From positions 1,550,001 to 1,614,000 of the forward strand of contig JANVFP010000004.1 of the NCBI GenBank assembly GCA_027919835.1: DNA of 64,000 nucleotides. Reading direction: 5' to 3'. A model generated the notes under the pieces. The model worked only from the letters and a program-made list of their open reading frames with translations, was not told the DNA's origin and searched no databases. Origin of the DNA: Lentinula raphanica (taxonomy: Eukaryota > Basidiomycota > Agaricomycetes > Agaricales > Omphalotaceae). How positions within the stretch are numbered: position 1 is the first letter of the stretch; each line of letters opens with the position of its first letter. A program made the translations under genes and the position numbers. This document shows, one piece after another, positions 16,434-49,555 of this stretch.

Positions 16434-17144
16434 GTCGTCATCGGCGGCGACTAACACCCTCACACATCTTGTTTTTAATCTCGCCTAAAGGGCGTAGTCT
16501 TATTCCTTGGTTTCCTCTAAAATTTTCACGCATATAACCATACTTCTCGTGTATAAACTCGCTTCACTTCTCTTCATTCCTGTCGTGCATCGCTCGTTGA
16601 AAAGCCTTGATACATCGTCTCGCCCTTTCGGGTTTCACTGTTTCTGCCCTTCCTCGGGTTCTCTGCGTCCTACGAGGCCTCGCCTGTAGCACGAATCTTG
16701 TCTCGCCTTCTCCCTGCTGGGAGAACGCGCTCATAGCAATCGCGGAGTGGTTCCCACACACTCTTCACGTTACAAGTTCTACCCAGTTCTTGATCACGGA
16801 GTGGTTTATTAACGCACTCTTCTTGTCTTCATCTCGCTGTTTTTATCACTGTTATCATTGCCTATCATCGTGTCCTTGGCTTACCAAGCGATCATCCACA
16901 GAATCTGGCTCCTCGCACTCGCTCAGTCCTCAGTGCCATACCAGGTTCAAGTACACCCGATCTCCCTTCACCTTCTCCCCTGTCTTCCGTGTCGTCGTCA
17001 CCAAACACACCGGAGCCAGAACCCACTGCCGAGAACCTTGATCTTCCGAATCCCGAAGACCAAACCACCGAAGAACTTGATACTTCCAATCCCAATCCCC
17101 AGCTTGACACCTCACCTGACTCCGATTCCGACGACGAATACATC

Positions 17145-20100
17145 ATGTCCTCTCGTCTCAGCGCCAATGGTCGTATCGACTATGGTAATAACAAGAGCAC
17201 TAGTCCGCTTATCAAACAGAAACTCATGTTCGACATCTTCGATTACACGGATCTTCGTGATTCCATCGAGGATTATGCCAAGCAGAACAAACTCACTGGT
17301 CAGTCCGAAATTCGAGATCTCTGGCGCAAGGCGTGGAGAGATTTCAAGGAAGACCGGATGTGGTTTCGTATGCACAAGGACAAACACGATCTCCTTTCGA
17401 ACACGGAGTTCGACTCTATTCTCCGAAGTCGTTTCTTAGGCGCTGTCTGGCCTAGCGACGTCGCTTATCTGCGTTCCAAGTCGAAGATGAAAACCACCGG
17501 TTCGGGTGCCTTCGCAGATTATGTCGGTGAAGTCCAGACACTCAACTGTGAGCTCCAGGGCACCAACTACTTCTTTGATGACAAGCAACTTCTTGCCTTG
17601 CTCTCTGACGGGTTGCTCCGCGCGTTTCGTGAGGACCTTGTCTATGAGAAACTTGAGATTACCCCTTCGACGGACCTAGAGCAGTGGATTACTAGTGTCG
17701 CCGACTTCGAGACCAGATCTAAGTGGCGACATCCCAAGCCCTCGAACACCAACTCCAATGTGCCCCTCGCGGGTTCCTCTTCGTACAATGCCTCTTCTCG
17801 TGATAACTCTCGCTCATCATCTCGCCCGAATACCAATCCTATCTCTGTCGAGGAAATCACCTCGCTGGTCCAGAAGTCGAAGACTTCGAAGAACCCTCAC
17901 TACGCTGGTCGTTTATCGGAAAGCGATAAACGGCTGCTTGATCTCATCGAAGCGTGCTATCGTTGTAGAACTGGCTGGGCAGGTCATCGCTCCACCGATC
18001 CTGCTTGTCCGGGTATCCGTTTGGAGGTTCCTTATTGTCCTCCTACTACTCAGATGATGAACAAGGCCATTGAGATTCATAGGGCAAAGGGTTGCGCTAT
18101 CACGTACAATGCGCTTCTCAAAGCCTTCCCTGAGACTCCTGCCGTGTCGTCTGTGTCATCCCACCCGGGCCTCCCTGTTCTCGACGACATCTCTGCATTC
18201 GATTCCTTGCCTACTGTTCACACGCCTCACCACGTTCCCGCTCCCACTACCGCGGTAGTGAACCCGTATGGTTCCTACCCGGTTTCCGCGGTGATTCCAG
18301 ACTCAACCCTGTACCATGAGAAACCTCTTCGGTCTTACAACGACCATCACTCTTGCCACGCTTCCTCTTCTTCTTGCTCATCCACGCCCTCGGCCAAGCC
18401 TCTCGCTGCTGTCGTTCCTCGTCGCGGTCGCTGGTCAGACTTCGTTGAGACGGAACTCGTTGTCTCTGACAGCGAGGATGAACAACCTTCTACCATCTCT
18501 GTTTCCCCGCCTGCTGTTGACACGAGTGCAGCTCGCCAACGTTCAGTTTCAGAGTCAGCTCCTCCTGAAAAGCGTCGTCGAAGCGACGAGCATGGTACCG
18601 CCATCCCTGTCTCTTCCTCCTCCGCATCTGTCTCTGCGCCGGTTGCTTCGATATCGCCTACCGAAAAGGAATCTCCTGCGGGAGCGGTAGCAGGTGTTGA
18701 CGTAGACCGGGTAAGTCTCGAAATGCCTTTTTTTGAACCCCACCTTCTTTGGCGTGCGCACTTGCTGGGCTCTTCGGAGTCCAGGAGTTGTACCGCTGAT
18801 GTGCTCATAGACAACGGTTGCCCTTTTGTGCTAATTGACACTAACATGGTCTCTTCCTTAGGCTTGAAGTCTCGTCGCCTACACGTACCTCGGTCTATGA
18901 CCCTCGCTATGTCGGACGGCCAGCCTCAAGTCTTCTCTGCAACTCATTACTGTAAAGTCTCGTTACGTGACCCGTCTGATTGGTGGCGCTCACGTACTGT
19001 TCGTGCATTAATCCTACCTTCTCTGTGTCACCCCATGATCCTTGGTCTCCCCTTCTTGTCACATAACTCTCTCGTTATAGATTATTCACTTCGTTCCATA
19101 TCCCCAAAGAATTCTTCGTTTGATTTACTACATCCCGCTCCTCCTTACGCGCCTCCCCCTCCTCCTCCTCCCTTAACCCCTTCTGATCGTCGAGAGCAGG
19201 AGCAGTTGCAGCTCGAGGAGATCCTGTCTTTCAAGAAACGTTTGTTTACTGAATTGAAAGCTTTTGTCCGCGCTAATCCTAAGCGTTTCCGATCTGAACC
19301 GGTCGCGGCTTTTAACGTCGTCGCCGCTGTTAAGGCTCGCATCGAACAACTCGAGCTCATTGCGGCTCGAGAAAAGCTTTCTCAGGAACTCAAGGATGAG
19401 TTCTCTGACGTCTTCGGTGATATACCTCACATTGATGACCTTCCCACTGACATTACTTGCAAGGTCCAACTCAAAGCTGCTAACGTTACTCTTCAGACTC
19501 GGGGTTACGCTTCGCCGCGCAAGTTCAAAGAAGCATGGTCCATCTTAATCCAAAAACATCTGGATGCTGGCCGTATTTGACCCTCTTCATCCTCGTCTTG
19601 CTCGCCTGCGTTTCTTATCCCCAAGGCTGACCCGACTGCGTTGCCCCGATGGGTTAACGACTTCCGCAAGCTCAACGCCAACACAGTTCCGGACCGTCAT
19701 CCTCTGCCTCGCATCGACACTATTCTCGCTGACTGCGGGAAAGGTAAGATTTTTGGCAAAATGGATATGACTGATTCTTTCTTCCAGACGCGCATGGATC
19801 CGGCATCGATTCCCTTGGTCGCTGTGCAGACACCCTTAGGCATGTACGAATGGACGGTGATGCCGCAGGGTCTTCGCAACGCGCCCGCTATTCAACAACG
19901 TCGGGTCACCCAAGCGCTTCGCCCGTACATCGGTCGGTTCTGTCACGTTTATCTGGACGACATTATCATCTGGTCGAGTTCTATCGAAGAGCATCATCGC
20001 CACGTTCGTCTCATCCTCGAGGCACTTCGTCGCAACAAACTCTTCTGTAACGCCAAGAAGTGTATCTTCTTTCAAACCGAACTGGACTTCTTAGGTCATC

Positions 20101-20894
20101 GCATCTCTGCCCAGGGCATCTCCGCTCAAGAGGTCAAGTGCGAGGCTATTCTCAATTACCCCACCCCCACTTCTGCTTCGGAAGTTCGTACCTTCCTTGG
20201 CATGGTACGTTTCATTGCTGGATATCTACATAACCTTGCCGAATATACCGCTGCACTGACTCCGCTCACACGCAAAGAGTATGATCGTCGTTTTCCAGGC
20301 TGGACGCAGGAACACGATATTGCCTTCCAGGCCATCAAGGAACTTGTGGTTTCTCGTAGTGTCCTAACTACGATTGACCACGAGAATCCAGGTAATAACA
20401 AGCTCTTCCTTATCACTGACGCTAGCGACTTTAGGTCGGGTGGTGTTCTCATGTGGGGCGAGTCACTTGATACCGCGCGTCCCGTCTCCTTCGATTCCGC
20501 TCAGTTCTCCAAGGCCGAGCTTAATTATCCGGTTCACGAAAAAGAATTGCTGGCGATAGTCCGTTGTCTGCGCAAATGGCGTGCGGACTGTCTAGGCATG
20601 AAGATCCATGTCCTCACTGATCATCGAACACTTGAAAACTTTTCTACACAAAAAGAGCTAAGTCGTCGTCAACTTCGTTGGCAAGAACAGCTGAGCCAGT
20701 TTGAACTAGAAATTGCTTACATCAAGGGCGAAGATAATCCTGCCGCCGACGCTCTTAGTCGCATTCGCTGCGGCGCACTCCCCTCCGACCCTGAAAATCA
20801 GACTCCTCCTGTTACCCTTGAATCTGCACTTGCCGCGGACGACGACGATGAGATTGATGTCTCCGCGTGGAAGTCCAACCCTTTCCTGTGCGCT
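17145..20894 (+). pseudogene. gypsy-1 Gag-Pol, one internal TGA, no integrase
   Basis: Single reading frame from ATG 17145, open upstream to about 16989, through a Gag domain, a CCHC-like knuckle (CYRCRTGWAGH then a Cys), and a protease with VLIDNGCPF, an Asp-Asn-Gly active site instead of the usual DSG or DTG. RT follows with YLDDIIIWS, then RNase H with LITDASDFRSGG and LTDHRTLENF. TGA at 19578-19580 interrupts the frame at the start of RT, but the same frame continues on both sides; ATTTGACCC reads as a likely CGA-to-TGA change. No frameshift in roughly 1,250 codons. The end at 20894 is the insertion point of the next element. Confidence 0.85.
20890..20894. repeat. target-site duplication GCGCT, left
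   Basis: GCGCT directly before the 5' LTR, matched by GCGCT at 38207-38211 after the 3' LTR. The last T could instead be the first LTR base, giving a 4-bp duplication. Confidence 0.75.
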
Positions 20895-20897
20895 GTT

Positions 20898-20914
20898 GCG
20901 CGGTTTTTCCGCGC
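20898..20914. other. terminal hairpin of the LTR
   Basis: Perfect six-base inverted repeat GCGCGG/CCGCGC around TTTTT, starting three bases inside the LTR and present in both LTRs. It may be part of the end recognised by the integrase; that role is inferred. Confidence 0.6.
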
Positions 20915-22488
20915 AGGCGTGCAATGATCAAAAAGACCAACTTAGACCATTGCATAGTATCAATAAGGACTGTAGTGAGCCCGAACTAGCAGTCAAACTT
21001 GTATCAGTATAAGCTGGGATACAGATCCTTTGGCAGGATCAGCCATGAATATCCACTTAGAGCTATTGCTCGCACCCTTGGTCGGGGATCCTTCAAGAAT
21101 GCTGACTACTGGTACGAGCACACCAAGGGAATACCGACTTAGTATCAAGATCTGCCGGATCGGCACAACTGAGTTTGGTACTTGGCTGTGATGACGGAAA
21201 TTTCACTTGATCTAGCAGATCAGACACGATGAGAACCTATCCGGACGAGTTACCACACGGAAACCCTACGCAAAGTAGCGGAAACCGTCGGAAACATGAT
21301 GATCTAGTATTTCCGTGGCAGTACGGGTGAAACCCGCAGCGGAAACACGCATATGTTCAAGTTCTAAACTGGGATATAGCGTATGCTATGTACAGCTTTG
21401 ACCAGTACTCACGGAGACGCGCGGAAACCTACGGAAAACACTTCTGAAGCATTGATCTGCATTGTCCGCTCCGGAACACCAGGCTATATGCATACCGTTC
21501 GAAAGCTACGGACCAGACCTACCTGATCCGCGAGATCAACCACTGTTATGAGTCTATCTCATTAACTTGGGGAGACCACTACTATTCCGCGGAAGCAAAT
21601 TCGTCGGAAACACTTGAGCAACACAGGCAGGAGCCACTCTGACGAGTTAGGCACCCTAGCATGTGGATGCCGCACAGACCATGGTCGGAACTTGCTTGAT
21701 CTTCTAGATCTGGCGAAAGTACGACGAAATACGGACAAGTTTCATCTTTTTCTCTGTTTTCCTTACTATTTCCTTGCGTGTTTGTATCGTTTCAGTCATA
21801 TTTTACTATTTAAGTGTATATTATCGGACTCCGTCCGTAGAAATAGCTAGATCTACTAGATCAAAGACAAATACGGGTATTGGACTTTTCGTAGTGTACT
21901 TAAAGACCTGTATCCGCACAAATGAAACAAGTTTCGCGCCCAGATCTCTCTGAACTGGTAATCCTTTTCATCCATACGTGGGAGTAAAGGCTTCTAAGCC
22001 GTACCGGACCTTGCAGATTAAGTGTGTTACTTCATCGCGATAAGCCCGACTTTTGAGTGGTTTGACTTGGTGTCTGTCACTTGCTAGTTGAAGGTAGACT
22101 CCGTTCCGGAGATACAGAGGACTTGGTCTCAGGTTGTGCCGAGTGAACGTGCAGAGTTTTGGTGGCTCTGTTCAAGTTGACACGTAGTGATTGGTGATCT
22201 GCGTGATCTTCGAGGTTTTACTGAGAATAGTGATCAGTACTGCTTCACCCGGGAGCGGAATCGATTGGTCTACCATAACGTCTGGTACTCCGTTGCTTTC
22301 CGAGCCTAAAACCCCTTATCCGAGTGGAAGCCACTCAAAACAAACCCCTTAGTCCAGATCTTACGACTGGTATATCCGTGTCACTTCGTTCTGCTGACCA
22401 GTATTGCTGATCTAAAAGATCTTACAAGACTGCGTTCGACTTGAGATATAAGATAGTGCGGAATCTCTGACAACGCCCCACACCTCGC

Positions 22489-22496
22489 TATAAATA
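22489..22496 (+). promoter_or_regulatory. TATA box of 5' LTR
   Basis: TATAAATA about 105 bases before the LTR end, in both LTRs. It fits the start of the genomic transcript roughly 30 bases downstream. Confidence 0.55.
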
Positions 22497-22594
22497 CAAT
22501 TTGATTGACGAATCCGTGAAGTCGTACTCTGTGTTCGTGCTAAGTGACCTGTCATAAGGCATTATACTAAGAACCGACTTTATACCTCGTTATC

Positions 22595-22611
22595 TGGAGC
22601 CCACCGCGAGG
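22595..22611 (+). promoter_or_regulatory. putative primer-binding site
   Basis: TGGAGCCCACCGCGAGG begins immediately after the LTR. The TGG start is complementary to a tRNA CCA end. The tRNA was not identified. Confidence 0.5.
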
Positions 22612-22689
22612 GGTGGAATCTATATTTTGGTCGAACTCGAGAGATCTTCTTGATTTCTCAAAACTACTGCCTTTGATCGAATTTATTTG

Positions 22690-24606
22690 ATCATTAAAAA
22701 TAGCTCCAAGAGCTACTCGGACTTCGAAGAACGCGGGCTCAGCAGATTTCTTTGATCCAGCGATACAAGCTTCAGATCAGCGAAAGCGCGCAACAAAGAA
22801 ACCCTCTGTACCTGTTTACGATCCGAGAAACCTCGGAAGAGCGAGTACTAGCAATCCAGATAACGGGAGAGCTCCTAGACCATCTTCGGAACAACCAGTA
22901 ACGAAGAGATCTAACGTAGTGCCAGGAAACGGTAGACAGAAGGCAGCTACTGTTGGACCAGATCCGCAATCTAGTTCAGATCCTACATTACAACCCGAAC
23001 CATTTGATTTGATACGACTGTTTTTACCCAACAATATGTCCGAAGTACATAACGGAAATGATCAGGGAGCCGCGGGCGCGAATGCTAACGCACCAGCGAA
23101 CCCGGCTGCCCAACAAAAACGACCGGAGGATCAACACGACATCATAAGGATGCTTGGTCCACCTGAACTGACTCCCGCGGAACAAGCAGAGTATAACAAT
23201 ACCAAGTTTCCGCTTACGCACAAAACTGCTATGATCCTGGACTTGGCCAATCCGAGCATGATCCCCGAGTGGGTGAGGTTCTGTTTGAACACGTTCCAGG
23301 CTACGGAAGTTACCTCCGAGAAGGTGAAGATGCAAAAGATCTTTTCTTGGATGACCCTTCAGACCAAGCAGGCTCTCGAGCATCTTCCCGGCGCGCAGGA
23401 GGGAAGGGAAGACGCGGACTGTTTTCTGCGTTCCTTGTGTGAAAGATTCCCGGCATCTCTAGGGAGACCAATGGGTTCGAAGAATACGCTCTTGCAGATC
23501 GTACAGAACTATGCTCCTTTGGGTGTCCGGGACGGAGATAGGTTGCTCGGATATTGTCTGTTGATGGAGGTAGAAGCCAATAAGTTGTTGAAACCGCCTC
23601 CGGCGATAGGAAACACGGAATTGGTGTCTCTTTTCCTGTCAGCATTCGATGACGAGTTACGGAAAGCTGTGAACCGTAAGGTTCAACAGCAAGTACCTGC
23701 TTTCCGCGTAGAGAAACGTCGGGTCGATGATCCATATCTGTTCATAGAGTACAAGGAAGCAGCAGAGGCCGTAGCAAGGCACCCACCCTTGGAATCGTTG
23801 TACCGGACGGTAACAAGTCGGGATGGCGTGGTCTTCAATGCGGAAACCCACTCAAGAGGAGGCGTGTACGTTCCGATTGGTGGTCCTCCGGTGATCAAAG
23901 AAGAAGTACCGGATCTCTCGCATTTCTTCCGGTCTCCAGCTAAGCCGTTGAAGTGAAACGAGAGGCTTCCGAGGAAACGGAAAGAGCACTAGCTGCAAAT
24001 AGGGACCAGTACAGTGTGTTGGTCAAAGATTTGGGAGCACTTAAGGCTACCTACAAAGAGGAACTTGAGACGTTGGCTCAAATGCTGGCTAACATCAAGA
24101 CCGGAAATGTTCAACCTGCGCAACGGGCGCAGCCCCATACTGTCGCTTCTGGTAGTGGTAATCCCGGAAACAGTGGGCCTCCCCGCGGAATCATTAACAC
24201 GAATCCGAATAATGCACAAGGTCAAAGGTCTGAGATGTTGTGTTTCCTTTGTCGGGAACCGAATCATATGATGCAAAGTTGTCCAATGTTCTTGGAACTC
24301 TTAGGGAAAGGTTGGATTATGCGTGATCCGCAAGATCCAAAGCGTCTTAAGTTGAAGGATGGGTCTCCGCTACCGAACAACTTCGGAAGTGAGAGTAGAT
24401 ACCAAAAGATCATGAAATATGGTCAGGCCAAAGGATGGCCCGAGGTTTCGACGATGATGAACGAGATGATCCCGGACAATGAGGATTACTCGGAACAGTT
24501 GGCCGGATCCCCAGCTTGGATGGTCATTGCCAACCTGGCGGAAATGGTGCAAGGGAGATCTAGCAATGGTGTGGCTACGGTGTACACGAACGAGTCGGGA
24601 AACTGA
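22690..24606 (+). pseudogene. Gag of 17.3-kb element, frame-broken
   Basis: Two overlapping frames. The first is open from about 22690, with its first ATG at 23036, and ends at 23956. It carries a capsid-like helical region with WVRFCLNTFQATE and FLRSLCERFP. The second (23953-24606) begins with a likely coiled coil and carries the nucleocapsid knuckle CFLCREPNHMMQSC (CX2CX4HX4C). The frame steps by -1 at about 23953 and again before 24615. The 115 codons before ATG 23036 look like real coding sequence rich in Arg, Lys and Ser, so translation may begin elsewhere or after splicing. Gag would form the particle that packages the element RNA. Confidence 0.75.
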
Positions 24607-24614
24607 GGAATCCA

Positions 24615-26096
24615 ATGATTGAGTTGACCTCTGGGCCGAGGACACGGTCTCAGCAACAGGCAACAACTCATGAGGGTGCCCCAAAGCCTAACTCACCAAA
24701 AGCAATACCTGCCGTCAAGAATAAACGCTTTGACGGGGTACATATACCCATAGATCGAAATAACCCTAGTAAAAACAAAACATCCGAAAAACCGAAGTCC
24801 AATCCGGACAATTCTACGCCTAATCATGACCGATCTGCTGGATCAGACCCCGATTCTTCTCAATCACTGAGGGAAGCTGCTTTGGAAAGGATACAGTCAG
24901 TGACCATTGACGATTTAACGGATGAGAGTGCTTTAGGTTCGGGACGCGAGCCTGATCAGGCAGATCAACGGAAATTGAAGCAAGTACGATTCCGCGATGC
25001 GTCACCTCCTCGTACGGAAAATCCGAGAAGGCCATTTGATGATGTTCAGCCCAGAGAAGTTACACCTCACCCTCGAAATCAACCAAAGCCGGAGAAGATA
25101 CCTGAATCTAAAGGATCTTCGAAGGCACCAAAATACAGGCTGCAGAATGAACTGTTTACGCCTGGTCTAGAGGAAGAGCTTGCTGACCGGATAGTGCGAA
25201 AGACGATTGAATTGACTTCTTCCGAAGCTTTACAGCTTTCGGGGAAGATCAGGCAGATCGTGGCACGAAAGATACGGAATAAGCGAGTACTTCCGCAAGA
25301 TCGAAAGAAAATGCTGCTGAACCTGGCTGATCAACAAGATCTAGCTACGGAAACACTTTCAAATGACGATTCCGAAGACGAACAAGTCATTTCCGTGGAT
25401 GATCTAGCATTACCCGAAGCTTGGGCTTTTGAAAGATTATCTGAGGATCGGGATGGGATGAAAGCAGGAGCGTTTGTTCAAGTAGATCCAGTAGAATCAT
25501 TCTTGAGTGATGTAGACGAGAATGATGAACGACGAGATATGACCATAGTTGCTACCATCGGCAATGGTCTCCGTGCAGTGTGGCCTGTTGTGAATGATCG
25601 GGAAGATCTCGAAGTAGAGAACCTCCTGGACTCAGGATCACAGATAGTCGCAATCGATATGAGCGTGGCGTTAGGCTTAGGTCTAGGTTGGGATCCCGGA
25701 ATCACCATACAGATGCAAAATGTACATGGCGGGATCGCGCGGACCAAAGGTTTAGCTCGAAATGTGCCCTTTCGATTTGGACCAGTCACAGTGTATTTGC
25801 AGTTACATGTCCAAGAAAAGGCTCCCTTCGAAATACTGTTGGGACGTCCGTTTGATGTGTTAACTGAGAGTGTCATTCAGACTTTTGGATCGGGTGATCA
25901 GGAACTTACGATTACGGATCCGAATACTGGAAAACGGTATACCATGGGTACATATCCGAAAGGACATGGACCGAGAGCACCAAGAAGGTGGTGGAACGAA
26001 AAGTATCACAGCCAACTCAACAGTTGCAACCCGAATCAAGACGGGAAGACACTCACGAGGAGGCAGAGAAAGTTCCGCAACCAAATTTTTGAATAA
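24615..26096 (+). pseudogene. protease region of 17.3-kb element
   Basis: A long acidic linker is followed by a retropepsin-like domain: LLDSGSQIVAIDMSVA holds the DSG active site, and EILLGRPFDVL is the typical C-terminal flap-side motif. The frame appears to change twice near the end: near 25985 into a Glu/Gln-rich stretch, and near 26090 at a run of five T into the segment leading to RT. Both fit loss of one base. The protease would cut the Gag-Pol polyprotein. Confidence 0.75.
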
Positions 26097-26097
26097 C

Positions 26098-28367
26098 CTC
26101 TGGGATCTGAGTAGCGACCAGGGAGAGGTAGAAATCGCTCTTAGTGGGTACTGGGATGCTCAAGCGGAAGAGGTGGTTATAGAGTCGAATCAGGTGAAAC
26201 GAGGTACCTTCTCCGATGAAGAATTAGCGGACGTGTATGTACAATGCTGTCTGCCAACGATCGAGAAGTCACACCCCGGAATTGCCGAAACCATATCACT
26301 ATACCTGAACAAAGGTGTAGATCATCAACAAAATCGTGTGATCAACCCATGGAAGGAAGGATTTAGAGCTGATCCGACCGTTGAGGACCTGAAGGAGACC
26401 TTTTACCAGTCCATGACAAAGGACGTTAGGTGGAAGGACTTACACGGGTTAACTCGTCCATATGATAACACGGAAGATCTACCAGATCAAGTAGATCAAA
26501 CAAAAGATGCGGAATTGTCTTCAATGACCCAAGATTTGGAGGCTGCGATGCATCGTGTTAAGCTCTGGGAACTCAAGAACGAGACGATTGACCAGCATAT
26601 ATGCGCATATAATGATGTGTTTTTGCCAGATCAGCCAGTTTCGGTCTTCGGTTCTCGAAAATATAAGCCTGTAGCGGTGAAAGTTCGCCCTGTCAAGGCT
26701 GATTTACCGGAAGAATTCCGTGTGCGGAGACACATTTACGGGGATCCTTTGGCTGATCTACCAGATCTACCAACTCATCCTCCGGAATTCACGCCGGGTA
26801 TTCGGTATACGCAAGAACGGAAAGAGATCATCGAGAAAAACCATGCGGAAGGTTTCCTTACGGACGAGGAAATGAAGCTAGTTCATCATATGATGAAGTT
26901 GCAGGAAATGGGTTTTGCTTGGGAAGCTTCCGAGGGCGGACATTCAGAGAGGACTTCTTTCCTCCCGTGAAAATTCCGGTCATACCTCATGAGCCCTGGG
27001 TCGAACGAAATATTCCAATTCCTCCCGGAATCTTCGAAAAGGTTTGTAAGATCATCAAGGATAAGATTGATGCTGGAGTTTATGAACCATCTTGCTCGAG
27101 TTATCGTTCAAAATGGTTTTGTGTGGTCAAGAAGGATGGAACGAGTCTTCGTTTAGTACATAGTTTGGAACCCTTGAACAAGGTGACCATTCAACACTCC
27201 GGGATTCCTCCTGCTACCGCGGATATTGCTCGTCATTTTGCGGGTCGTGCCTGTGGTGGTCTGTTGGATATCTATGTGGGTTATGATGAACGACCACTCG
27301 ATGTTAGTTCGCGAGATCTGACGACATTCCAAACCCGTACGGACCACACCGTCTCGTAAAGTTGCCTATGGGTTGGACGAACTCTGTTCCGATATTCCAT
27401 GACGATGTAACTTACATGATGCGAGATGAAATTCCGGAATATACTATTCCTTACGTCGATGATGTTCCTATCAGAGGCCCGGGACTCGTTATGAATTACC
27501 GGGTGGCGGATACGAAACTATCCCTGAAAATCCTTTGATCAGACGATTTGTCTGGGAGCATCTCCAAAATGTGAACCGAATCATTCAGCGGATGCGGTAT
27601 TGCGGCGGAACCTTCTCGGGACCTAAAGCATTCCTGTGTTGCGCTGAAACTGTAGTGGTTGGACACCGTTGCACGTACGAAGGACAGAAACCGGAAGATA
27701 GAATCGCAACTACGGTTCTAACTTGGCCTCCGTGCTCTTCTAAGACACAGGTCCGAGCCTTTCTGGGAACTGTTGGTCAGCTCCGGATGTTCATTCACAA
27801 TACGCTAAGAAAGCCTCACCTTTGACCAAATTAACGGCGAATATTCCGTTTGAGTGGAAGGATGAGCATGTCATAGCCATGGACCTGTTGAAAGACGGAG
27901 TCCGTAATGCACCAGCCTTAAGAGTCATAGTATATGACTGGGAAACACACTTAGCAGTGGATAGTTCTTACATGGGTACGGGATTTTACATCTATCAGAT
28001 TGATCCTGTAGATCAGACGAAGATTTACTATAATTACTTCGGATCCATCCCGTATAATGAACGTGAAGCTCGGTTTTCTCAATCTAAGCGTGAACTCTAT
28101 GGTTTGAAGGTTGCTCTCCGAGCAACACACTATCTTCTTTATGGATGTCGGAAACTCACGGTGGAAACGGATGCTAGCTATATTCAAGGAATGCTTGAAA
28201 ATCCGAGTAGTGGTCCAAACGCTACGATCAACCGTTGGATTGAAGATATTCGTAAATTCCATTTCGATTTGATTCATGTCAAAGGAGCAACCTTTGGACC
28301 TGATGGTTTGTCTCGAAGACCTCCGGGAGGTTGGACTACCCCTCGCGGGAAACCGAAGAGGATCTAG
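26098..28367 (+). pseudogene. reverse transcriptase-RNase H, 4 frame breaks
   Basis: RT of the agaricomycete gypsy group marked by LLDIYVGYDER and PYVDDVPIRGP (the YVDD box). It is followed by the thumb-connection sequence VRAFLGTVGQLRMFI and RNase H with LAVDSSYMGTGFYIYQ, SQSKRELYGLKVALR and VETDASYIQGML. Frame changes occur near 26925, 27335, 27490, 27808 and 28340, the last at the border to the next segment, each by -1. At 27335, 27490 and 27808 the local sequence reads as one missing base in or next to a short run. The domain content is complete, so only the frame is damaged. Confidence 0.85.
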
Positions 28368-29980
28368 CAGAAGATGCAGATGACTCCAACAACGTTAGGT
28401 TCTTCAAAGCGGACGAAGCGGATGATCCATTGCCCTTTGAATCATTCAAAGATCATATAGATCCCCGGACAGGATACTTTTGCGAGACCATTGAAGATGA
28501 GTTTGCGGAAGATCTTCAAGTTGCCCGGGAGGAAGAGATCCAGCATGCATTCCTCAAAGAACGTTTAGAGGCCTCGGGAATGCCTTTGACCTCTCAGTTT
28601 CTGCAGTATACTGCGATCCCCGACAATGCTACTTGGGGACCTGATCACAAATATCCGATATCTCATAGATCGGATGGCGGAAATCGTCTAGATCAGCAGT
28701 TACCGGAAATTCGAGCATGGCTTAAGGACCCGAATGCTGAGCAATTCGCGAAGTTGGACAAAAGACAACGAGCGGAAATGGACCGGAAAACACTGTCCTT
28801 TTCAATAGACTCGGAAGGTCGACTGTTCCATCGGAAACCATCCACAGATCAACTGCGTTTAGTGGTTGAACCGGAAAAACGAATGTATCTATTGCACAGT
28901 GCTCATGATGCGTTAGGACACAAGGGCACATATGCGACGAAAGACTTCTTAGAAAAGAGGTTTTGGTGGCCGATCTGGAGAAAGACGTGGAGTGGTATGT
29001 GAAAACATGTCAAGCCTGCCAAGATCGACTTAGGTCTTTGGTACGGATCCCTCCAACGGTGACCTTCACGCCATCCTTGTTCCAAAAGATACATATCGAT
29101 ACTATGGTTATGTCTCCGGCCAGTAATGGTTGCAGATATATCGTTCACGGAAGGGATTCATTGTCGAGTTGGCCGGAAGCTAGGGCACTGAGAGTTGAAA
29201 ACGCGAGATCACTCGCGGAATGGTTCTTTGAAGACATCATATGTAGATGGGGATGTCCGGAAATCGTGGTCTCGGACAATGCACCACAATGAAGCTTATG
29301 TTGAGATGGCTCGAACAGAAATACGGGATCCGTGGAATACAGATATCGCCTTACAATTCACAAGCTAACGGAAAGATTGAGCGTGCTCACTTTGATCTGA
29401 GACAAGCACTTGCGAAAGCGTGTGCGGGAGATCTGTCAAAATGGTACTACTTCTTGAAACCGATACTTTGGGCTGATCGTATTACTGCACGGAGAGGTTT
29501 AGGCTGTTCGCCATACTTTGTAGCTACTGGTACGGAACCTCTGCTACCTTTCGATATTGTTGAATCTACATATTTGGTCAATCCACCAAATTGAATACTA
29601 TCACGGGAAGAGCTACTGGGCTTCCGGGCTCAGGCTCTTTCCAAACATCGTTCCTTCGTCGAGAACATGAAATCACGGATCGACGAGAACAAACGTCGAG
29701 AAGCGAGAGTTTTCGAGGAAAAGTACAAGTACACAATTAAGGACTGGGATTTCAACCGGGAACCTTAGTACAGGTACGGAACACCGCCATCGAGAAGAAT
29801 TTGGATCGGAAAATGTACCTTCGATATCGTGGACCTATGGTTGTCATCCGGAGGACACGAGGAGGTGCATATATCATTGCGGAAATGGATGGCACTGTAC
29901 TTAAAGACAAAGTGGGTGCTTTCCGTGTGATCCCGCATCATGCTCGTTACGAACCGATGAACTGCCGGAAAATATACATG
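28331..29980 (+). pseudogene. integrase of 17.3-kb element, frame-broken
   Basis: Zinc-binding N-terminus with His residues in LLHSAHDALGHKGTY and Cys residues in CQACQ. A catalytic core follows with IDTMVM (first Asp), VVSDNAPQ (second Asp) and ANGKIERAHFD (Glu). The C-terminal SH3-like segment includes [20 protein letters not shown]. Frame steps of -1 near 28965, 29285 and 29755, and an in-frame TGA at 29592. No chromodomain was recognised. This enzyme would insert the DNA copy; as read here it could not be made as one protein. Confidence 0.8.
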
Positions 29981-30381
29981 ATCTGATAGATCTGTCGCCC
30001 GAGCAGTTAGAATCTATGGTACAGGATGAGGAAGACGAACCTGAGGAAGTGGAGGACTTTATTTTCAGTACGGTCCCTCGAATAAACATTTCCGGTGATG
30101 ATCAGTCGAATTCCGTTGAACCACCACTGGTTCCGCCTGTTGAACAGCTTGATCCGGAGGATCTGAAGGCTGCTGAGTCCGAAGATCAAGAGGAAGAGGC
30201 GAATCCGTCCTACCGAATGGTCCACGACGAAGTGGTCACGGAAATCTTTCTAAACATGCCTGATCCAACAGATCAGTTAGTTTGGGGGAGTTTCCGCGAT
30301 GTTTCAACTTATTCTATCTCAATATCACTCGAGGAATTTAGTTGCCACTGGATTACCTCAAAAACTACCAATGATACTTGA
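29981..30381 (+). pseudogene. acidic post-integrase segment
   Basis: Open frame after another -1 step, rich in Glu and Asp (EEDEPEEVEDF), with two palindrome copies at 30150 and 30261 read as Asp-Pro-x-Asp. It ends at 30381. No known domain; probably the C-terminal end of Pol. Confidence 0.55.
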
Positions 30382-30584
30382 CTTGACAAAAGTACAGGTA
30401 TAAAAATAGGCGACAGGGCAGAATGAACATGATCTAGATGGTCAGCCTCGATAAGCACTTGCTTAAGGTGCGGAGCGTGGCCCTTGCATTTCGGGATCCT
30501 CTAAGTCTGTCTGCGCAATTTTAATTACGGGTGGCAGCGACGGTGGTGCGGAAAACACGTACACCTCTTCAACGTCGGCAGGAA

Positions 30585-32465
30585 TCATGGTGGTGTCCTC
30601 GTCTTTGGGCAGAGGTTCACCACCTTCCGAGCAGCCCTGGCGTTGTCGATGATCCGTTGACTAGCCTCCCCACGGTGTGCATAGAAACGAGCTTTCATAA
30701 CACAGTCGAAGAGTTGGGTCGTATGGAAGTTGATGAAGGCATTGTACTGCTCTTCGGTGTACGATTCAACCTCCGGGTTGTGGGCGAGTCCGATGTTGTG
30801 AAGAAGTTGCACGAGATCTCGATGATCTGTATCGTCGGGGGTACCTGTAACGATAATCAGTAACACGAAGCTTGCGGAAGGTCTCCGGACTATGCAAAAC
30901 GAAATTATCTAACGGAAAATGCGTGATCTAGCAGATCAACGAGTTTCCGTAGAAGTCCGTACGAAAAGCGGAAAATGGAAGTGGTACTCACTAGTATCCG
31001 CGAGTTCCAACGAATACTTCACCCTCTTAATCAGATCTTCACCAACAGCACGGGCTGGGAGATCGCGGTTACAGCTGCACAGTACTATGTGCTGAGGAGA
31101 CAGAGCCCGCTCAGTCTCATCACCGTCCGCGGGACCAACATCGCGTTCGGAACGTTTGCGCTTGCTCTTGGTCTTGGAAGACTTCGGAGTGTCATCGTCG
31201 TCACGGTGTCGCGCTTTTTGTTTTGGTCTTAGCCTTCGCAGGAGTAGAATCCTCGACGTCGTCAGCCATCTATGGCACGGGTTAGTCATAAACTTGTCTG
31301 ATCTACAAGATCAGCCACGTACCGAGACATCCTGATCTGCCAGAGCGCGGGTTCGTCGTCAGGGGATTTCTTCTTGCTTTTGGAACGAGTAGAGGGCCTG
31401 GTAGGAGGAGGAGGAGTCGCTTCCGCGTCTTCTTCCCCTTCTCGCCTTTTTCACGTTCCTCCTTGGCGTGCTTGATCCTTTCGTCCATACCAATGATATG
31501 ATCGATGACGAGTTCAGCACGACGAGGCTGGATAAACCGTTAGCAGCTGATCTAACAGATCAAGGTACCATACTTACCGGAGGGTCATACCGCGGAACAG
31601 GAACCCCATACGCAGTGATTCTTGCATTTCAAAGCGTTGCTCGCGTGGACTACGGAAGTGGCCTCGCATGGGAAGTCCGCGGCCTCGTAAATGGTTAGCA
31701 AGTGCGCCTCGAGGACCTTTTGGAGGAGAAGGACCATGTTCTGCAAGATCAGCATCCTGGAACCTTTAGTCAATAAACGAATCTTCGAAACAGTTGCGGA
31801 AACGCACCACCTCGGCCATGAACTTGGCGTCAGCATCGAAACTGCTGGATCTGCTGGATCAGTCGCAACTTCCTTGCCTTTCGACTTGGATTTCGACGGT
31901 CCTTCAGGATCAGCAGGTGGAACACTAGGTCCGCGAGTACTAACGCAGGAGAACCCTGTCTGCCTTGGTCCTCACGGAGCTTTTTGCGACGAAGGTCGTT
32001 CAGCTGAATGTAGAAACTGACGATCTCAGCGTTCTTCCCTCCCTCTTCAGAGAGTTTGGGAAACTGCTTAGGGATCTCGTCACGGATAGTGCGGTACGCA
32101 TTCACGGCGGAAAGTAATTCCTCCGCGAGATTGTCGTACGCCCGCAGATAGTCCTTGTTCATACACGCAGCGTCGCGGGACACTCGAATGAGCTGACGGA
32201 AAATGGTTAGTTTTGTTAGATCTAGCAGATCAGACGGTTTCCGTACCAAATGAGTGTACGCGCAACGGACATCGTTCAAAAAGATCGTTTTGTTGGACGT
32301 GGTGAACTCGACCTTGTCCTTGCTAGAACTGTACTTGGCACCTTGCCAGGCCAGGCTCTTGTCATCGCTAACACGAGCAGCCCAGTACTCCGCGTCGACG
32401 CACCAGTTGGCAAAGTCAGCTTCAAGCGAGATAGGGAGATTGTGGTACTCGTAGTTGGGAGCCAT
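30585..32465 (-). CDS. antisense accessory gene B of 17.3-kb element
   Basis: Opposite strand to gag-pol, reading from ATG 32465 (MAPNYEYHNL) to a stop at 30585. Exon 1 (32465-32247) joins exon 2 (from 32192) in frame over a 54-bp GT-AG intron. Further exons encode helical segments, a basic Lys-rich stretch (HAKEEREKGEKG), a Pro/Ser/Lys-rich stretch, an acidic-basic stretch (RDDDDTPKSSKTK) and a final helical exon with LVQLLHNIGLAHNPEVE. Four introns, near 32220, 31550, 31310 and 30930, each contain one copy of the 15-bp palindrome. Frame breaks near 31960 and 31436, and a less clear one near 31215, suggest damage like that in pol. Family not recognised; a nuclear or nucleic-acid-binding role is only suggested by composition. 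Confidence 0.55.
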
Positions 32466-33278
32466 TTTTCGTTGAGTTGGAGTCGGATCTCTTAGATCAA
32501 GGGCTTTTATACCTTTTCCGATGCTTCGGGTCAGCAGGGGACTGCTGAGCTTTAGTTTGGGGGAGGGGACACACGGTGTTTCAAGAATTTTCGAAATTTC
32601 AGAAATTTTCATGAAAATTTTACGAGATCTAAAAGACCTGTGCTCGTGGACAGCTTAAGCATGCGTACAACGCAAAGACTTAGATCTAAAACCGACGCAG
32701 TTTGCAATTTGTAAAGCCCAATGGATTTAACATGCCATGTGAGGCTGCAACCACCAACTTGATAACCGAAGAAATAACATTGATGCGTCTGATCTAGCAG
32801 ATCAAAATGATCTAGCAGATCAGACTCAGTTCAGGAGGAAAAGACAGCGGAAAAGTAATGCAAAAGACTCAGAAAGGACATAGAGTGTCTAAGGCAGATA
32901 CTTAGAAGAACAACATAGGTCAATGAGCTACTTATAGGGTTCTATCAGGTAGCAGCCAAGGAAAACTTGAAGCATTAATTTATAGGCTGGGGAAGGGAAA
33001 CCTCAGAAGACATCTTAGGAGATATCTCAAGTGTCTTGAAGTTTCAACTTAGGAATTCTGCAAGAGATCTCAGACCAAGGAGTAGAAGACAAGATTGAGC
33101 CCACATGGGCATTGACATTCCAAGCAGAAGGCTACTAGCTAGCTAGAGACCAAGAAGGGTACTATATACTGCAAGACAAAGTACAAGTTGTGAGGTAGAA
33201 TTAGTCTGGCTCGAGAGAGAGTCCGATCACTAATCTACGAGGGCAAAAGTCCGGAAATTGCATAAGTCCATGGCTACC
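32466..33278. other. spacer between the two antisense genes
   Basis: About 810 bases, AT-richer than the genes. It contains a palindrome at 32485-32499 just upstream of gene B and a tandem pair at 32790-32804 and 32808-32822. It probably holds the promoter of gene B and the 3' end of gene A. No protein was recognised. Confidence 0.5.
32790..32822. promoter_or_regulatory. tandem pair of perfect 15-bp palindromes
   Basis: Two identical TGATCTAGCAGATCA sites with 3 bases between them, about 330 bases upstream of the antisense gene B start. This is the densest pair in the element, placed like a double operator. A binding protein is inferred, not known. Confidence 0.55.
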
Positions 33279-36046
33279 CTACTTACGAGACTGGGGCGAT
33301 CTCAGCGTTGTGGGAGGTTCGAGTTCTACCGGAACGTCTTCGTCGGTATCATCCCCCGCTATTTCCTCCTCTTCACTATCGTCGTGCTCAGCTACCAAAG
33401 CCTGTGCCACCGAGGTCCGGGAAGTTCCTTCTTCGACGTCCATCTCGTCGTCGGCTGTAGTTGACGCGGGAGGCGTGTGAAATTTAGACTCGGACGAATA
33501 ATTGCTTGGTACGGCAGCTGCAGGACGGCGGCGTGAACGGAGGATTGGCTCTGGAGGTAGCAAAGTGGCGACGGGAGGAGAACGAGGAGCTGAGGACGGA
33601 TCAGCCACGGAAGTGGCAACCAAGGCCGGAATAGAGGGCCCAGTAGAATCATCGGCGGGAAACTCATTAGATCGAAGGAATTCTTCTAAACGAGCCGTGT
33701 CGTTGGGGTCCACCAGGAAAGATGAGAGGTTGCACGCGGAATCCCAACCAAAGAAGGTGGCCAGCCAAGTGAGCAGGTCGTAATCCAAGGGGAGATTCGG
33801 ATTGTCGTCCGCCCATTTAGACAAGACCACGTTAAAGTCGAACCCGTTTGTACGAATATCTTGCAGATTAAGGGCGAGGCGACGACGGACGTCACCAAAG
33901 ATAGTTTCGAAGGAGGACATGATGTGACCCATCTCTTCAAGGGTATCGCGGAACCGCTCTAAAGAACCGGAATAACCTGGAAAGCGTTAGAACAAAAGCA
34001 TAGGTCGAAGAATGGAAACCACCTTACCTGCAGGGTAACCCTGGATGGTGTTGTGTATGGCGAGAAAGCGATCCCGGTGTTCGTCCAAACCCAGGCAGCT
34101 GGGGCAGTTGCGGTGTGTACGATCGCAGTGACCGCAGGGCCCGCCGATTTTAGTACCGCCCTCACAGACGACGCCCCGGCTAAGGCATGACAAACAGTTG
34201 TTGGGAGAAAGCAAGGCTTCAGGAGAAGGAAGAGTGGTGCTAGTGGATGACTGTAGAGGTCGAGAAGCTAGATAGTTATATCGACTTAAACCCTGTAAGG
34301 AGAAAGAGGTGTCGGCAGAATTTATGAAGGCTCCAAAGTTCTTCATCTCGTCGGAAAGTTTCCATTTGGGTCGACGAAGGAACGGTAGCTTGGGAGCGCG
34401 AGGGTTCTGAGCGACAGTCTTGCGAATCAGCTCGGAAAAGGGAGCCTTGGGTTTAAAATTCGGGTTGGTCAGGAAGCGGGCATGAGTAGACGTTCGGGAA
34501 TCGTCGCCGGTAAAGTAATCCGGTTCCCCCTCTTGAATGCGGAAGGGTTCCTCGTCTTTGGGAGACGATTCCTCCAGAGCTGGGACCAGGGACTCCGCGC
34601 GAGCTTTCCCAGTGGATTTCTGGGTGCGACGCTTCTTAGTCGGCGGGGCAGCGGTGGAAGAAGAAAGGGCAATGCTGGGTGGAGAATGTTCGCGTTTATG
34701 AACGGAAGACGGAGCAGGAACTTTTCGAAACTCCTCAGGGATTTTCGGTTTCGCCTTGGCGGCACGCGCAATGCTGGGACGAATGACTAACACATCAGGA
34801 GACCCCGAATCCTTGAACACGTCGGTTGCCGTGAGGTCTTCCTCCTCAACATCCTCAACAATGGGATCTGGAGTGACTGGAAACTTCGCAGGGGGACGAC
34901 GAGACTGGGGCGAGTTGGTAGTCAGCGGCTGACCTGTGGGTTGGTCAAAGTCTGGTGAAAGGGGACGCAGGCGTCGTTTGGGAACCGAAGAAGAGGAAGC
35001 CTGGGGTGCTGGCAAAGGCACTGCAAATGCCGGGTCAGGAAGAAGAGCTCGTTTAGAGGCAGGATGGACGATCTGGTCGACACGGGAACCCTGACTGGCA
35101 ACAGTAAGGATGAGTTGTCCCTCCCTGGTCAAAGAATCAAACGGTATAGGAAGAGCGAGGTCCTGGAGTTCAAAAATTTTGGTAATATCCTCCTGAGCAA
35201 GGACTTTAGCCAACCTGGATTAAGGAGGAAGGGCGAATGGCTTACCAGCAGACGATCGCGAGTTTTAAGACTCATACCCGGGCCGTCTCTAATCCTGGCA
35301 TCGTATACTCGTTCAGCGTACTCGGCCTCGGACAGATGTTCTTCGCAAAATTCGCAGATGAGGATGACTAGGAGAGGCGCGACGAGGGGGCAGTTACTGT
35401 GACCGTGCCAAAATAACTGGTAGTATTGCTACCGAGAGGGATGAGCAAGGCGATGGGAACAAAATAGGTCGAGGAGACTTACCAAGCTATGTGAAAAGTT
35501 GGGGAGGCTGGTGAATTTTAAAAGGCGACGATGGATCTCACTCTTAGCGAGATGGCCACGGATAATTCGCGAAAAACCGCGCTGCAGGAAGGCTAGGGCT
35601 TGATAAAGTTGAAAGGCCTCGCCTGTGGAGACGGACCCGGTCGCGAAAGTGGTACAAAAGGAGGTCAATTGGGAAGGATAAAAAGTCTGAAGCGGAGTCT
35701 CGCCGGAAACTTGGTCCAAGAGCTCTTTAAAATCGACATCTTCCGGATGGGAATAGCGTCTCAGGCTAAACGCCGGACTGGCATTGTTGGGTTTGTGTTT
35801 CCAGCGGTTGACGAGTATTGAGCATTCCTCAGCGGATGCTGGAAGGAATAGGGCGTCTGAATCGTTGGCAACCTTGCCCAGCTCTCGGACCGAGCGGTCG
35901 AAATGAACGTGATGGACGGCGTCGAGGTCCAAAGTATCCACAGGACGAACTGAAAGCTTCTTCCGCGGGTAGGGCACAGTAGAAGGAGTGGTAGTTAACT
36001 TGGGGAGAGGCCGCTTCGACGAGGAGCCTTTGGACGAAGAAGCCAT
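33279..36046 (-). CDS. antisense accessory gene A, Cys-rich protein
   Basis: Minus strand from ATG 36046 (MASSSKGSS) to a stop at 33279. Exon 1 (36046 to about 35485) joins a middle exon, starting LFWHGHSNCP and containing ICEFCEEHLSEAEYAERVY, then a 1.2-kb exon (35213-34025) and a last exon (from about 33985 to 33279) over the intron near 34024-33986. The large exon is Pro/Ser-rich with a basic patch PPTKKRRTQKS that resembles a nuclear localisation signal. It ends in a cysteine cluster, CLSCLSRGVVC, GPCGHC and NCPSC, likely to bind zinc. The last exon is helical then very acidic. The join into the 1.2-kb exon leaves one base unexplained. No family name assigned. Confidence 0.6.
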
Positions 36047-36490
36047 CGTGTCGAGATGGCGGACAACGATGGGGAGAAGGAAGAACGAACTTAGAGAAAT
36101 TTTTCCAAGTCCGATTGAACCTTTGTCAGCACTTACTAATCCCAGGCCTAGGCATAGGGATAGTATGTAAAATGTTGAAAAGAAGTCGTTTCGAGGAAGT
36201 GTGTATGTGATGTGATAGAATTGGAAGCGTGATTTACGTCATGATATCACACTCGGAAATTAAGCGCCGATAACAAACCGAGGACTTAGCGTCTTCGACA
36301 AGAGGACAGCGGAGTTGTCGGTACGGGTGCTAAGATCAACGGATCAACTTGATCTGTTAGATCACCGGGTATAAGCAAGTCAGAATGTTGCGGAAAAAGT
36401 GATTGATCTGTCGGATCAGCTACAGTACCACTCCTTTCAAGGGATACGAGCCTACACTACCCATAGCAATGACCGGGGACGGTCAGATCT

Positions 36491-36506
36491 TTAGTTTGGG
36501 GGAGAT
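36491..36506 (+). promoter_or_regulatory. polypurine tract of 17.3-kb element
   Basis: TTAGTTTGGGGGAGAT directly before the 3' LTR. It fits the primer for plus-strand DNA synthesis and confirms that the element is oriented plus, so genes A and B are truly antisense. Confidence 0.7.
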
Positions 36507-38206
36507 GTTGCGCGGTTTTTCCGCGCAGGCGTGCAATGATCAAAAAGAACAACTTAGACCGTTGCATAGTATCAATAAGGACTGTAGTGAGCCCGAACTA
36601 GCAGTCAAACTTGTATCAGTATAAGCTAGGATACAGATCCTTTGGCAGGACCAGCCATGAATATCCACTTAGAGCTATTGCTCGCACCCTTGGTCGGGGA
36701 TCCTTCAAGAATGCTGACTACTGGTACGAGCACACCAAGGGAATATCGACTTAGTATCAAGATCTGCCGGATCGGCACAACTGAGTTTGGTACTTGGCTG
36801 TGATGACGGAAATTTCACTTGATCTAGCAGATCAGACACGATGAGAGCCTATCCGGACGAGTTACCACACGGAAACCCTACGCAAAGTAGCGGAAACCGT
36901 CGGAAACATGATGATCTAGCATTTCCGTGGCAGTACGGGTGAAACCCGCAGCGGAAACACGCATATGTTCAAGTTCTAAACTGGGATATAGCGTATGCTA
37001 TGTACAGCTTTGACCAGTACTCACGGAAACGCGCGGAAACCTACGGAAAACACTTCTGAAGCATTTATCTTCGTTGTCCGCTCCAGAACACCAGGCTATA
37101 TGCATACCGTTCGAAAGCTACGGACCAGACCTACCTGATCCGCGAGATCAACCGCTGTTACGAGTCTATCTCATTAACTTGGGAAGACCACTACCATTCC
37201 GCGGAAGCAAATTCGTCGGAAACACTTGAGCAACACAGGCAGGAGCCACTCTGACGAGTTAGGCACCCTAGCATGTGGATGCCGCACAGACCATGGTCGG
37301 AACTTGCTTGGTCTTCTAGATCTGGCGAAAGTACGACGAAATACGGACAAGTTTCATCTTTTTCTCTGTTTTCTTTACTATTTCCTTGCGTGTTTGTATC
37401 GTTTCAGTCATATTTTACTATTTAAGTGTATATTATCGGACTCCGTCCGTAGAAATAGCTAGATCTACTAGATCAAGGACAAATACGGGTATTGGACTTT
37501 TCGTAGTGTACTTAAAGACCTGTATCCGCACAAATGAAACAAGTTTCGCGCCCAGATCTCTCTGAACTGGTAATCCTTTTCATCCATACGTGGGAGTAAA
37601 GGCTTCTAAGCCGTACCGGACCTTGCAGATTAAGTGTGTTACTTCATCGCGATAAGCCCGACTTTTGAGTGGTTTGACTTGGTGTCTGTCACTTGCTAGT
37701 TGAAGGTAGACTCCGTTCCGGAGATACAGAGGACTTGGTCTCAGGTTGTGCCAAGTGAACGTGCAGAGTTTTGGTGGCTCTGTTCAAGTTGACACGTAGT
37801 GATTGGTGATCTGCGTGATCTTCGAGGTTTTACTGAGAATAGTGATCAGTACTGCTTCACCCGGGAGCGGAATCGATTGGTCTACCATAACGTCTGGTAC
37901 CCCGTTGCTTTCCGAGCCTAAAAACCCTTATCCGAGTGGAAGCCGCTCAAAACAAACCCTCTAGTCCAGATCTTACGACTGGTATATCCGTGTCACTTCG
38001 TTCTGCTGACCAGTATTGCTGATCTAAAAGATCTTACAAGACTGCGTTCGACTTGAGATATAAGATAGTGCGGAATCTCTGACAACGCCCCACACCTCGC
38101 TATAAATACAATTTGATTGACGAATCCGTGAAGTCGTACTCTGTGTTCGTGCTAAGTGACCTGTCATAAGGCATTATACTAAGAACCGACTTTATACCTC
38201 GTTATC
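36507..38206 (+). repeat. 3' LTR of 17.3-kb element
   Basis: 1,700 bp, same ends and internal features as the 5' LTR, including the terminal hairpin, the palindrome at 36820-36834 and the TATA box. Roughly 20 single-base differences were noticed between the two copies. Confidence 0.92.
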
Positions 38207-38211
38207 GCGCT
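38207..38211. repeat. target-site duplication GCGCT, right
   Basis: Copy of the left duplication. It shows a single integration event joining gypsy-1 on the left to Plavaka-derived DNA on the right. Confidence 0.75.
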
Positions 38212-48761: not shown

Positions 48762-49555
48762 TGTTAAGAGTCGGATTATTTCTTAATAGCCTTCTAGAAT
48801 ATATTCGTAATCACCAGGAAGTAACTTATCCTGGGGTTATTGCTGAATAATAGCTGCGAGGGGTCTTCTTCCAAGGGATGTTACGTCCTGAAAGGAATAT
48901 CGAACTATATCGGCAGAGTTACTTGACTGGAAAAGCGTCAGGCAAGTAGTGTCGAAGGATAACTGCGAGGGGTCTTCTCTCAAGGAATGTTACGTCTTGA
49001 AAGGAAAATCGAGTTATATCGGCGAAGGACCTTGACTGGAATAGCGTCAGGCAAGGGTACTTGACTGGAAAAGCGTCAGGCAAGTATTGCAATAAGAATT
49101 GAGATGTCGTCTCCCAAGGTAATCTGTCGTCCTGGAAGGTAATCCAACCAATACTGCAATCTACTCGGCTGGAAAAGCGTCAGACGAGGCTTCAAACTAT
49201 GTGGTAGCTTGGTATGTCACTGGATATGCACAGTGGTGGCAACACAATATGTGTAATTCCCAAATATACTCTGGATGTAGGTGAAGGTTACAAAATAACA
49301 AGTCTAAAGGTTGTTTGTAAGTATTTGGTAATCCTTTTATAGTATATACTGTGGGAAAGGAATGCCTAAATAAGAAGGAAAGTGATTATCCCAATTGGGA
49401 ATTGAGAAGTATATCTAATCTGTATTATGTAAGCAGTAATTTTTCGAAATTGTCAGTCATGATCAAGTGTTAGAACAATATTATGAGTCTCTGCCATAAG
49501 TGTCTTCAACTAAACAAAGTGTTCTTTTGCCAGTCTGAAGTTTCACTTCCTAACA
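48762..49555 (-). repeat. 3' LTR of gag-only element (left copy)
   Basis: 794 bp, bounded by TGTTA and TAACA. It contains four 25-base hairpins at 48922-48946, 49031-49055, 49060-49084 and 49163-49187, embedded in a repeated block of about 110 bases with conserved GTTACGTC and TATATCGGC words. Confidence 0.92.
48922..49187. other. array of four covarying hairpins in the LTR
   Basis: Each hairpin has stem CTTG-A-CTG against CAG-G-CAAG around a constant nine-base loop GAAAAGCGT (one copy GAATAGCGT). The fourth copy has CTCG-G-CTG against CAG-A-CGAG: the paired T-A becomes C-G on both sides, and the central mismatch is swapped from A/G to G/A. This compensatory change supports a selected stem in RNA or single-stranded DNA. 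The same array is in the right LTR at about 53441-53706. Confidence 0.7.

Follow-up and report, generated by a model that had tools for sequence, protein, structure and literature searches.

A palindromic word dispersed through one LTR retroelement family of Lentinula raphanica, and its candidate element-encoded binder

This locus raises the question of whether a retroelement can carry, scattered along its own sequence, a code of binding sites for a protein that it encodes itself. We analyzed a window of 64,000 nucleotides (the whole stretch of DNA that was studied) on contig C4 of the 49.06-Mb genome of Lentinula raphanica, a fungus related to the shiitake mushroom. The original prediction was that a 15-bp palindrome, TGATCTNNNAGATCA, marks one retroelement in this window throughout, that it looks like a dispersed binding-site code comparable to the VANC system of plant VANDAL elements, and that two antisense accessory genes are candidates for the binder. 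An LTR pair, pol domain matches (protease, RNase H and integrase zinc-binding) and antisense ORFs between pol and the 3′ LTR are all present, which identifies the element as an LTR retrotransposon with antisense accessory genes. Its order is LTR, gag-pol pieces, the two antisense spliced genes B and A, and LTR. The LTRs are 1.7 kb each and near-identical, and GCGCT flanks the element at 20890-20894 and 38207-38211, with the precise LTR ends uncertain by 1-2 bases. The gag-pol of the window copy is split over several frames, whereas in other copies frames stay open for as many as 1,458 aa at this integrase. The features are as follows, a site being an occurrence of GATC-N5-GATC, the core of the palindrome.

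20894..38206, + strand: LTR retroelement copy; gag-pol on the + strand, genes A and B antisense; pol frame-broken here
20894..22594, + strand: 5′ LTR, with 7 sites
21208..21222, no strand: perfect site in the 5′ LTR
24324..30275, no strand: 14 sites in gag-pol, 12 of them in the Asp-X-X-Asp frame
30814..32822, no strand: 10 sites in the gene B region, including 5 perfect matches to the predicted palindrome
31216..32465, - strand: antisense gene B, starting at 32465; homology with related gene models traceable to about 31.1 kb
32193..32246, - strand: gene B intron holding a site, TGATCTGCTAGATCT on the minus strand
32790..32822, no strand: three overlapping sites in 9-bp steps, upstream of gene B
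33282..36046, - strand: antisense gene A, encoding a Cys-cluster protein; variable between copies, no sites
36341..36418, no strand: three sites upstream of gene A
36506..38206, + strand: 3′ LTR, with 6 sites

The element is repeated in the genome. At least 45 matched pieces of the gene B region were found (40 of 88 candidates were scored), and the 23-base context of the 5′ LTR site recurs at 141 places genome-wide with up to two mismatches. The window copy sits inside another pol-bearing element (16794-20927, two long ORFs) that is without GATC-N5-GATC. The LTR sequence reads TGTTGCGCGG...CGTTA (20894, 22592 and 38204; loci L031-L055), and CG adjoins both LTR ends in the flanks of those loci that were inspected, which suggests an insertion preference at CG. 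Elsewhere in the window, a 109-bp tandem unit at 48850-49055 recurs at 53369-53574, on the other side of a 1,243-aa antisense ORF; these units are possibly the ends of another element.

When up to two mismatches were allowed, TGATCTNNNAGATCA had 42 matches in the window, 38 of which lie inside the element, a count in which LTR sites appear twice because the LTRs are near-identical. Shuffled sequence predicts 5.24 matches for the whole window, and the maximum of 100 shuffles was 11. The eight perfect copies that had been predicted were recovered (21208, 30924, 31299, 31548, 32790, 32808, 36350 and 36820), seven at the positions given and one corrected from 31309 to 31299. The roughly twenty copies thought to carry one or two changes became 30 inside the element, 17 with one mismatch and 13 with two. 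The claim that the family is missing from the other 46 kb holds for perfect copies; four matches, all with two mismatches, do occur in the 46.7 kb outside the element. The core is more discriminating. With only one LTR counted, the LTR and the internal region together (15.6 kb, 170 GATCs) hold 34 GATC-N5-GATC, against 1.85 expected from GATC density, and the 46.7 kb outside the element (230 GATCs) holds none. It is also the top over-represented gapped tetramer pair in the element. Across the 34 sites the base preferences extend symmetrically beyond 15 bp to TGnYTGATCTRnYAGATCARnCA, a dyad of roughly 23 bp (symmetrized counts of the arm bases, naive p about 1e-5 and 1e-6); apart from these symmetric arms, the flanks of the sites are unrelated. 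Some cores are chained in 9-bp steps (26476/26485, 32791/32800/32809 and 36342/36351). As regards other repeated words, CGGAAA recurs with a bias to one direction, being found in the LTR (21195-21605) 8 times forward and 3 times reverse, in the internal region 37 times forward and 9 times reverse, and in the 46.7 kb outside the element 18 and 9 times, respectively; it may be a second dispersed word.

The 34 sites divide into 7 in the LTR, 14 in gag-pol, 10 in the gene B region and 3 upstream of gene A, so that 20 of them stand outside gag-pol. Those in gag-pol lie mostly between the domain matches, with one (28002) within the RNase H match. The word is thus present in LTRs, coding regions, introns and spacers as predicted, but not quite throughout, since no GATC-N5-GATC was found in the gag stretch 22595-24300, in 26900-28000 or in the gene A block (32840-36300), a stretch of 3.46 kb for which the expectation is about 9.7. 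GATC density in this block is 3.2 per kb, compared with 4.9 outside the element. Among 30 loci (the window copy being L001), only 5 sites were scored in 51.7 kb beyond 32840; four of these are the 32791-32809 cluster displaced by indels, and one is a poor match. The tandem-repeat listing of the window showed no tandem array inside the element. Two possible origins of the sites were rejected. Neither a coding origin nor the insertion of a small palindrome explains them, as sites are also present in LTRs, in introns of gene B and in upstream regions, and those that vary most between copies do so by single bases.

The association with this family held up across the genome. Perfect TGATCTNNNAGATCA occurs at 347 places, compared with 1 for the reversed pattern, and among the 50 listed places, which cover C1 and part of the contigs up to C5, 48 are in the LTR element family: 17 in LTR context and 31 that either are internal sites of located copies or have an LTR site some 470 bp away, the spacing seen in the window. 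The other 2, C2:1050059 and C2:1503826, stayed unassigned. The element therefore shares with VANC systems a short word that is enriched within a single TE family and scarce in the rest of the genome. The bare core by itself carries a large genomic background, with 3214 GATC-N5-GATC and 1838 GATC-N6-GATC against 846 and 489 for the respective reversed patterns; a focal copy on C1 (521-541 kb) nevertheless holds 39 GATC-N5-GATC, compared with 22 in the first 520 kb of that contig.

Copies of the family share site positions, so that the check on conserved positions does not refute the original view, but its support is weak: measured against local controls, variation at the sites is barely lower than around them. 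An initial estimate, in which paired GATCs mismatched at 1.3% and the background at 4.3%, was rejected as inflated because it included the divergent gene A block. With that block left out, local controls applied and 29 of 40 pairs having enough coverage, mismatch at paired GATCs was 1.40% against a local background of 2.56%, and 146 of 2000 shifts were as low. A sign test (26 lower, 3 higher) was discarded, as it was biased by unequal window sizes. Fully invariant sites numbered 20 of 29 against 11.0 expected (0 of 3000 shifts), and 24 against 19.3 (p 0.03) when single-copy changes were ignored, while mean polymorphic columns at sites gave non-significant values (p 0.09 and 0.10). By region, p was 0.08 for the 5′ LTR and 0.002 for the 3′ part, where the signal is located; the gene B region showed no excess of site conservation over shifts (p 0.63). 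Isolated GATCs, with 0.85% mismatch against 1.33% for paired ones, are not more variable, and GATC ranks 32nd of 227 tetramers. Overall, the sites are weakly more conserved among copies than their local surroundings. Mismatch is higher in CpG columns (3.3%) than in other columns (1.8%), which is consistent with methylation of the family.

Most telling is a related family in the same genome. A sister group, with an integrase 67-68% identical to the focal one, has antisense A homologues; 1.4 kb of one copy (L061) was read as sequence, and elsewhere pattern positions were used. L061 holds a gene B homologue (33% identity over 73 residues), so that both A and B are present and diverged in the sister family. 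No TGATCTNNNAGATCA with up to three mismatches was found in the 1.4 kb of L061, an absence that is weak on its own because 0.9 would be expected by chance, and the perfect focal word was not found in C1 394-411 kb, which spans the sister copy. L061 has 19 GATCs, eight of them within AGATCT. A dispersed sister word to which L061 pointed, AGATCTANTCR, has 522 genomic matches against 173 reversed, and occurs seven times in the same copy outside L061 (C1:394672, 395329, 395893, 399158, 400770, 400784 and 410810), compared with about 0.16 expected at the genome-wide rate, the limits of the sister copy being estimated. At the orthologous gene B intron, the focal family has TGATCTGCTAGATCT and the sister GACTAGATCTATTCA; AGATCT is found in two more candidate introns of gene B in the sister, where all introns were placed by eye. 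The two words share AGATC and differ in arms and geometry; with four or five GATC-N5-GATC in the sister copy as well, they look related. Two other forms were rejected as the dispersed word. GARTAGATCTAYTC has 12 genomic places, 11 of them 4.2-7.3 kb downstream of a sister-type integrase, and thus looks like one shared site per copy, as does the inverted pair AGATCTAYTCR-NNN-YGARTAGATCT (23 places). Related families carrying different words, a feature of VANC systems, were therefore found for one sister family, on the basis of 1.4 kb of sequence plus pattern positions.

We were also interested in whether gene A or gene B might encode a binder. Gene A is a variable cassette: between copies that match at 93-97% over 29.3-33.1 kb, identity of the A proteins falls as low as 37-41%, and alignments break around the cassette (33100-36040; loci L001-L030) near 32.8-33.25 kb and near 36.0 kb. 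A polypurine-tract-like sequence, TTAGTTTGGGGGAG, stands near the pol end (30276-30290), between genes B and A (32551-32565) and directly before the 3′ LTR (36490-36504); L061 of the sister family has the middle form as well, and the first form occurs in 23 of 61 loci. These tracts divide the element into modules of gag-pol, B and A, and swapping of the A block might be guided by them. Zn2Cys6 fungal transcription factors have the spacing C-X2-C-X6-C-X(5-16)-C-X2-C-X(6-8)-C. This six-Cys spacing, which forms a conserved cluster in protein A, was found in 44 of the 73 proteins examined (7 of the 73 are gene B proteins, and others are partial). Searches of Pfam gave no match and no recognized DNA-binding domain in A or B, with 0 families at E up to 5 for the A proteins P0041, P0060 and P0071, and a profile of A matched no PDB chain. 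The predicted structure of A (P0041, from another copy) is confident over residues of about 45-310 and largely helical; its fold search gave no significant match (best E 1.4 in PDB and 0.065 in BFVD). The predicted structure of B was unusable (pLDDT 37). Matches to the A cluster domain covering at least 100 residues form two groups, of 48-100% and 33-37% identity, which run parallel to the words. A alleles with a 48-54% identical Cys-cluster domain (for example, at C1:592939-598274) keep the same word, so divergence of A alone does not move the word. In an alignment of seven focal-type proteins, B shows 61-94% identity (the lowest value coming from an odd gene model); between the focal and sister families its identity is 33%, also parallel to the words. 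Because of its Cys cluster, A is tentatively and only slightly preferred over B as the candidate binder.

Several other explanations for the word must be weighed. A host factor, such as a transcription, insulator or silencing protein, may bind the sites, with the element either exploiting this factor or being policed by it. Host zinc-finger proteins do bind repeated sites in LTR elements: the Su(Hw) insulator of Drosophila gypsy is one clustered block of binding words bound by a host protein. This precedent, in which the likeness is repeated binding words inside an LTR element, favors a host factor, as does the lack of a recognized binding domain in A or B. However, the sites described here are spread along much of the element, and host DNA has few of them. 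With 48 of the 50 perfect sites listed lying in the family, host genes make hardly any use of the word, and another word is found in a related family that shares the nucleus. We regard a host factor as the most serious rival, though less likely than a self-encoded binder. The difference between sister words also speaks against a centromere or chromosome-architecture signal of the CENP-B-box kind on a centromere-seeking element. Copies do cluster on several contigs (for example, C24, C25, C26 and C31), but many LTR copies are scattered over contigs, and we regard this explanation as improbable.

The palindromes might instead act in RNA as hairpins for packaging, dimerization or stability, since a short stem is possible at each site and sites occur in the transcribed region and the LTRs. 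None of five flanking or inner position pairs was complementary above column shuffles (p 0.39 to 0.98), with GATC itself fixed, and the gene B introns, read on the antisense strand, also carry sites. The hairpin was rejected because complementarity is no more than column composition gives, and its probability is very low. Scarcely more probable is that the word has no binding function and was spread by drift, codon bias or small insertions. The weak conservation among copies and the single reading frame of 12 of the 14 gag-pol sites would agree with this; the 20 sites outside gag-pol and the excess of 34 over 1.85 expected would not, nor would the single-base differences at the sites that vary most and flanks that are unrelated save for the symmetric arms.

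Our study has shown a family-specific dyad word dispersed in unrelated contexts, with a different word in one sister family. From the comparisons above, there is perhaps an even chance that TGATCTNNNAGATCA is the core of a dyad for an element-encoded DNA-binding protein that marks its own family, the word diverging with the protein. We infer the identity of the binder, its dimerization and the effect of binding (anti-silencing or transcriptional control). The roughly 23-bp dyad would be bound, probably as a dimer, by a sequence-specific protein encoded by the element itself, most likely by antisense gene A or B. Sites in LTRs, gene B introns, coding linkers and the regions upstream of A and B would let this protein recognize the members of its own family and determine the state of their chromatin or transcription, and the clusters upstream of A and B may serve autoregulation. 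Between sister clades, the word would diverge together with the protein. We count in support of a self-encoded binder the enrichment and family specificity, the symmetric arms, the clusters upstream of A and B, the lack of hairpin covariation, a sister family with its own word, an orthologous intron carrying each family's word, A and B both present and diverged in the sister, and the raised CpG mismatch. Counted against it are the lack of a recognized binding domain in A and B, a word unchanged across A alleles and the weak site conservation.

VANC proteins bind words specific to their own VANDAL family, mainly in non-coding tandem repeats, and related VANDAL families carry different words, according to the available portions of these reports (PMC5735166; PMC10398659). 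A 2026 meeting report also cites, in the part available, unpublished work pointing to co-evolution of VANC structure and target (PMC12859917). The present element resembles VANDAL21 and VANDAL6 of Arabidopsis in that a short word is concentrated in a single TE family and seldom found in other TEs, that related families have different words, and that the element encodes accessory genes with conserved and variable parts, as far as those portions describe them (PMC5735166; PMC10398659). In contrast, VANDALs are Mutator-like DNA transposons, whereas here an LTR element has protease, RNase H and integrase zinc-binding matches. The VANDAL word, as given in the same portions, is non-palindromic, lies in same-orientation tandem repeats that are mainly non-coding, and has proven binding (PMC5735166; PMC10398659); the word described here is a dyad for which no tandem array was found, 14 of the 34 sites are in gag-pol, and binding is putative. 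Since the tandem-repeat and host-element features are absent, the system is VANC-like in logic and not a member of VANC. A sister family with a different dispersed word matches what a VANC-like system predicts. The original view of a dispersed binding-site code is thus well supported as regards a dispersed, family-specific word, and partly supported as regards self-binding and the VANC parallel; lifting of silencing by the element's protein might be suggested by analogy only. Antisense additional ORFs between pol and the 3′ LTR are found in plant Gypsy elements such as Grande, RIRE2 and Retand, where the consulted part of the source calls their roles undetermined and reports one such protein to be nuclear (PMC7264820). 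Our element has antisense genes at the same position, and the likeness rests on position; unlike here, no dispersed word is described for the plant elements in that part of the source (PMC7264820).

In our searches of open-licence papers, no case was found of a dispersed self-word or self-marking code in a fungal or other LTR element. We tentatively suggest, at somewhat less than even probability, that a VANC-like code arose independently in a class I element, with an antisense-encoded dimeric protein and a 23-bp dyad placed in the LTRs, introns, promoters and coding linkers of its family, and that sister families of the same nucleus changed both protein and word so that each clade would regulate only itself. 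If true, this would be a self-marking code in an LTR retrotransposon, something that until now has been described for a DNA transposon of plants, and would provide a candidate job for antisense accessory ORFs. The presence of two clades with two words in one genome makes co-divergence of protein and DNA testable by simple binding assays.
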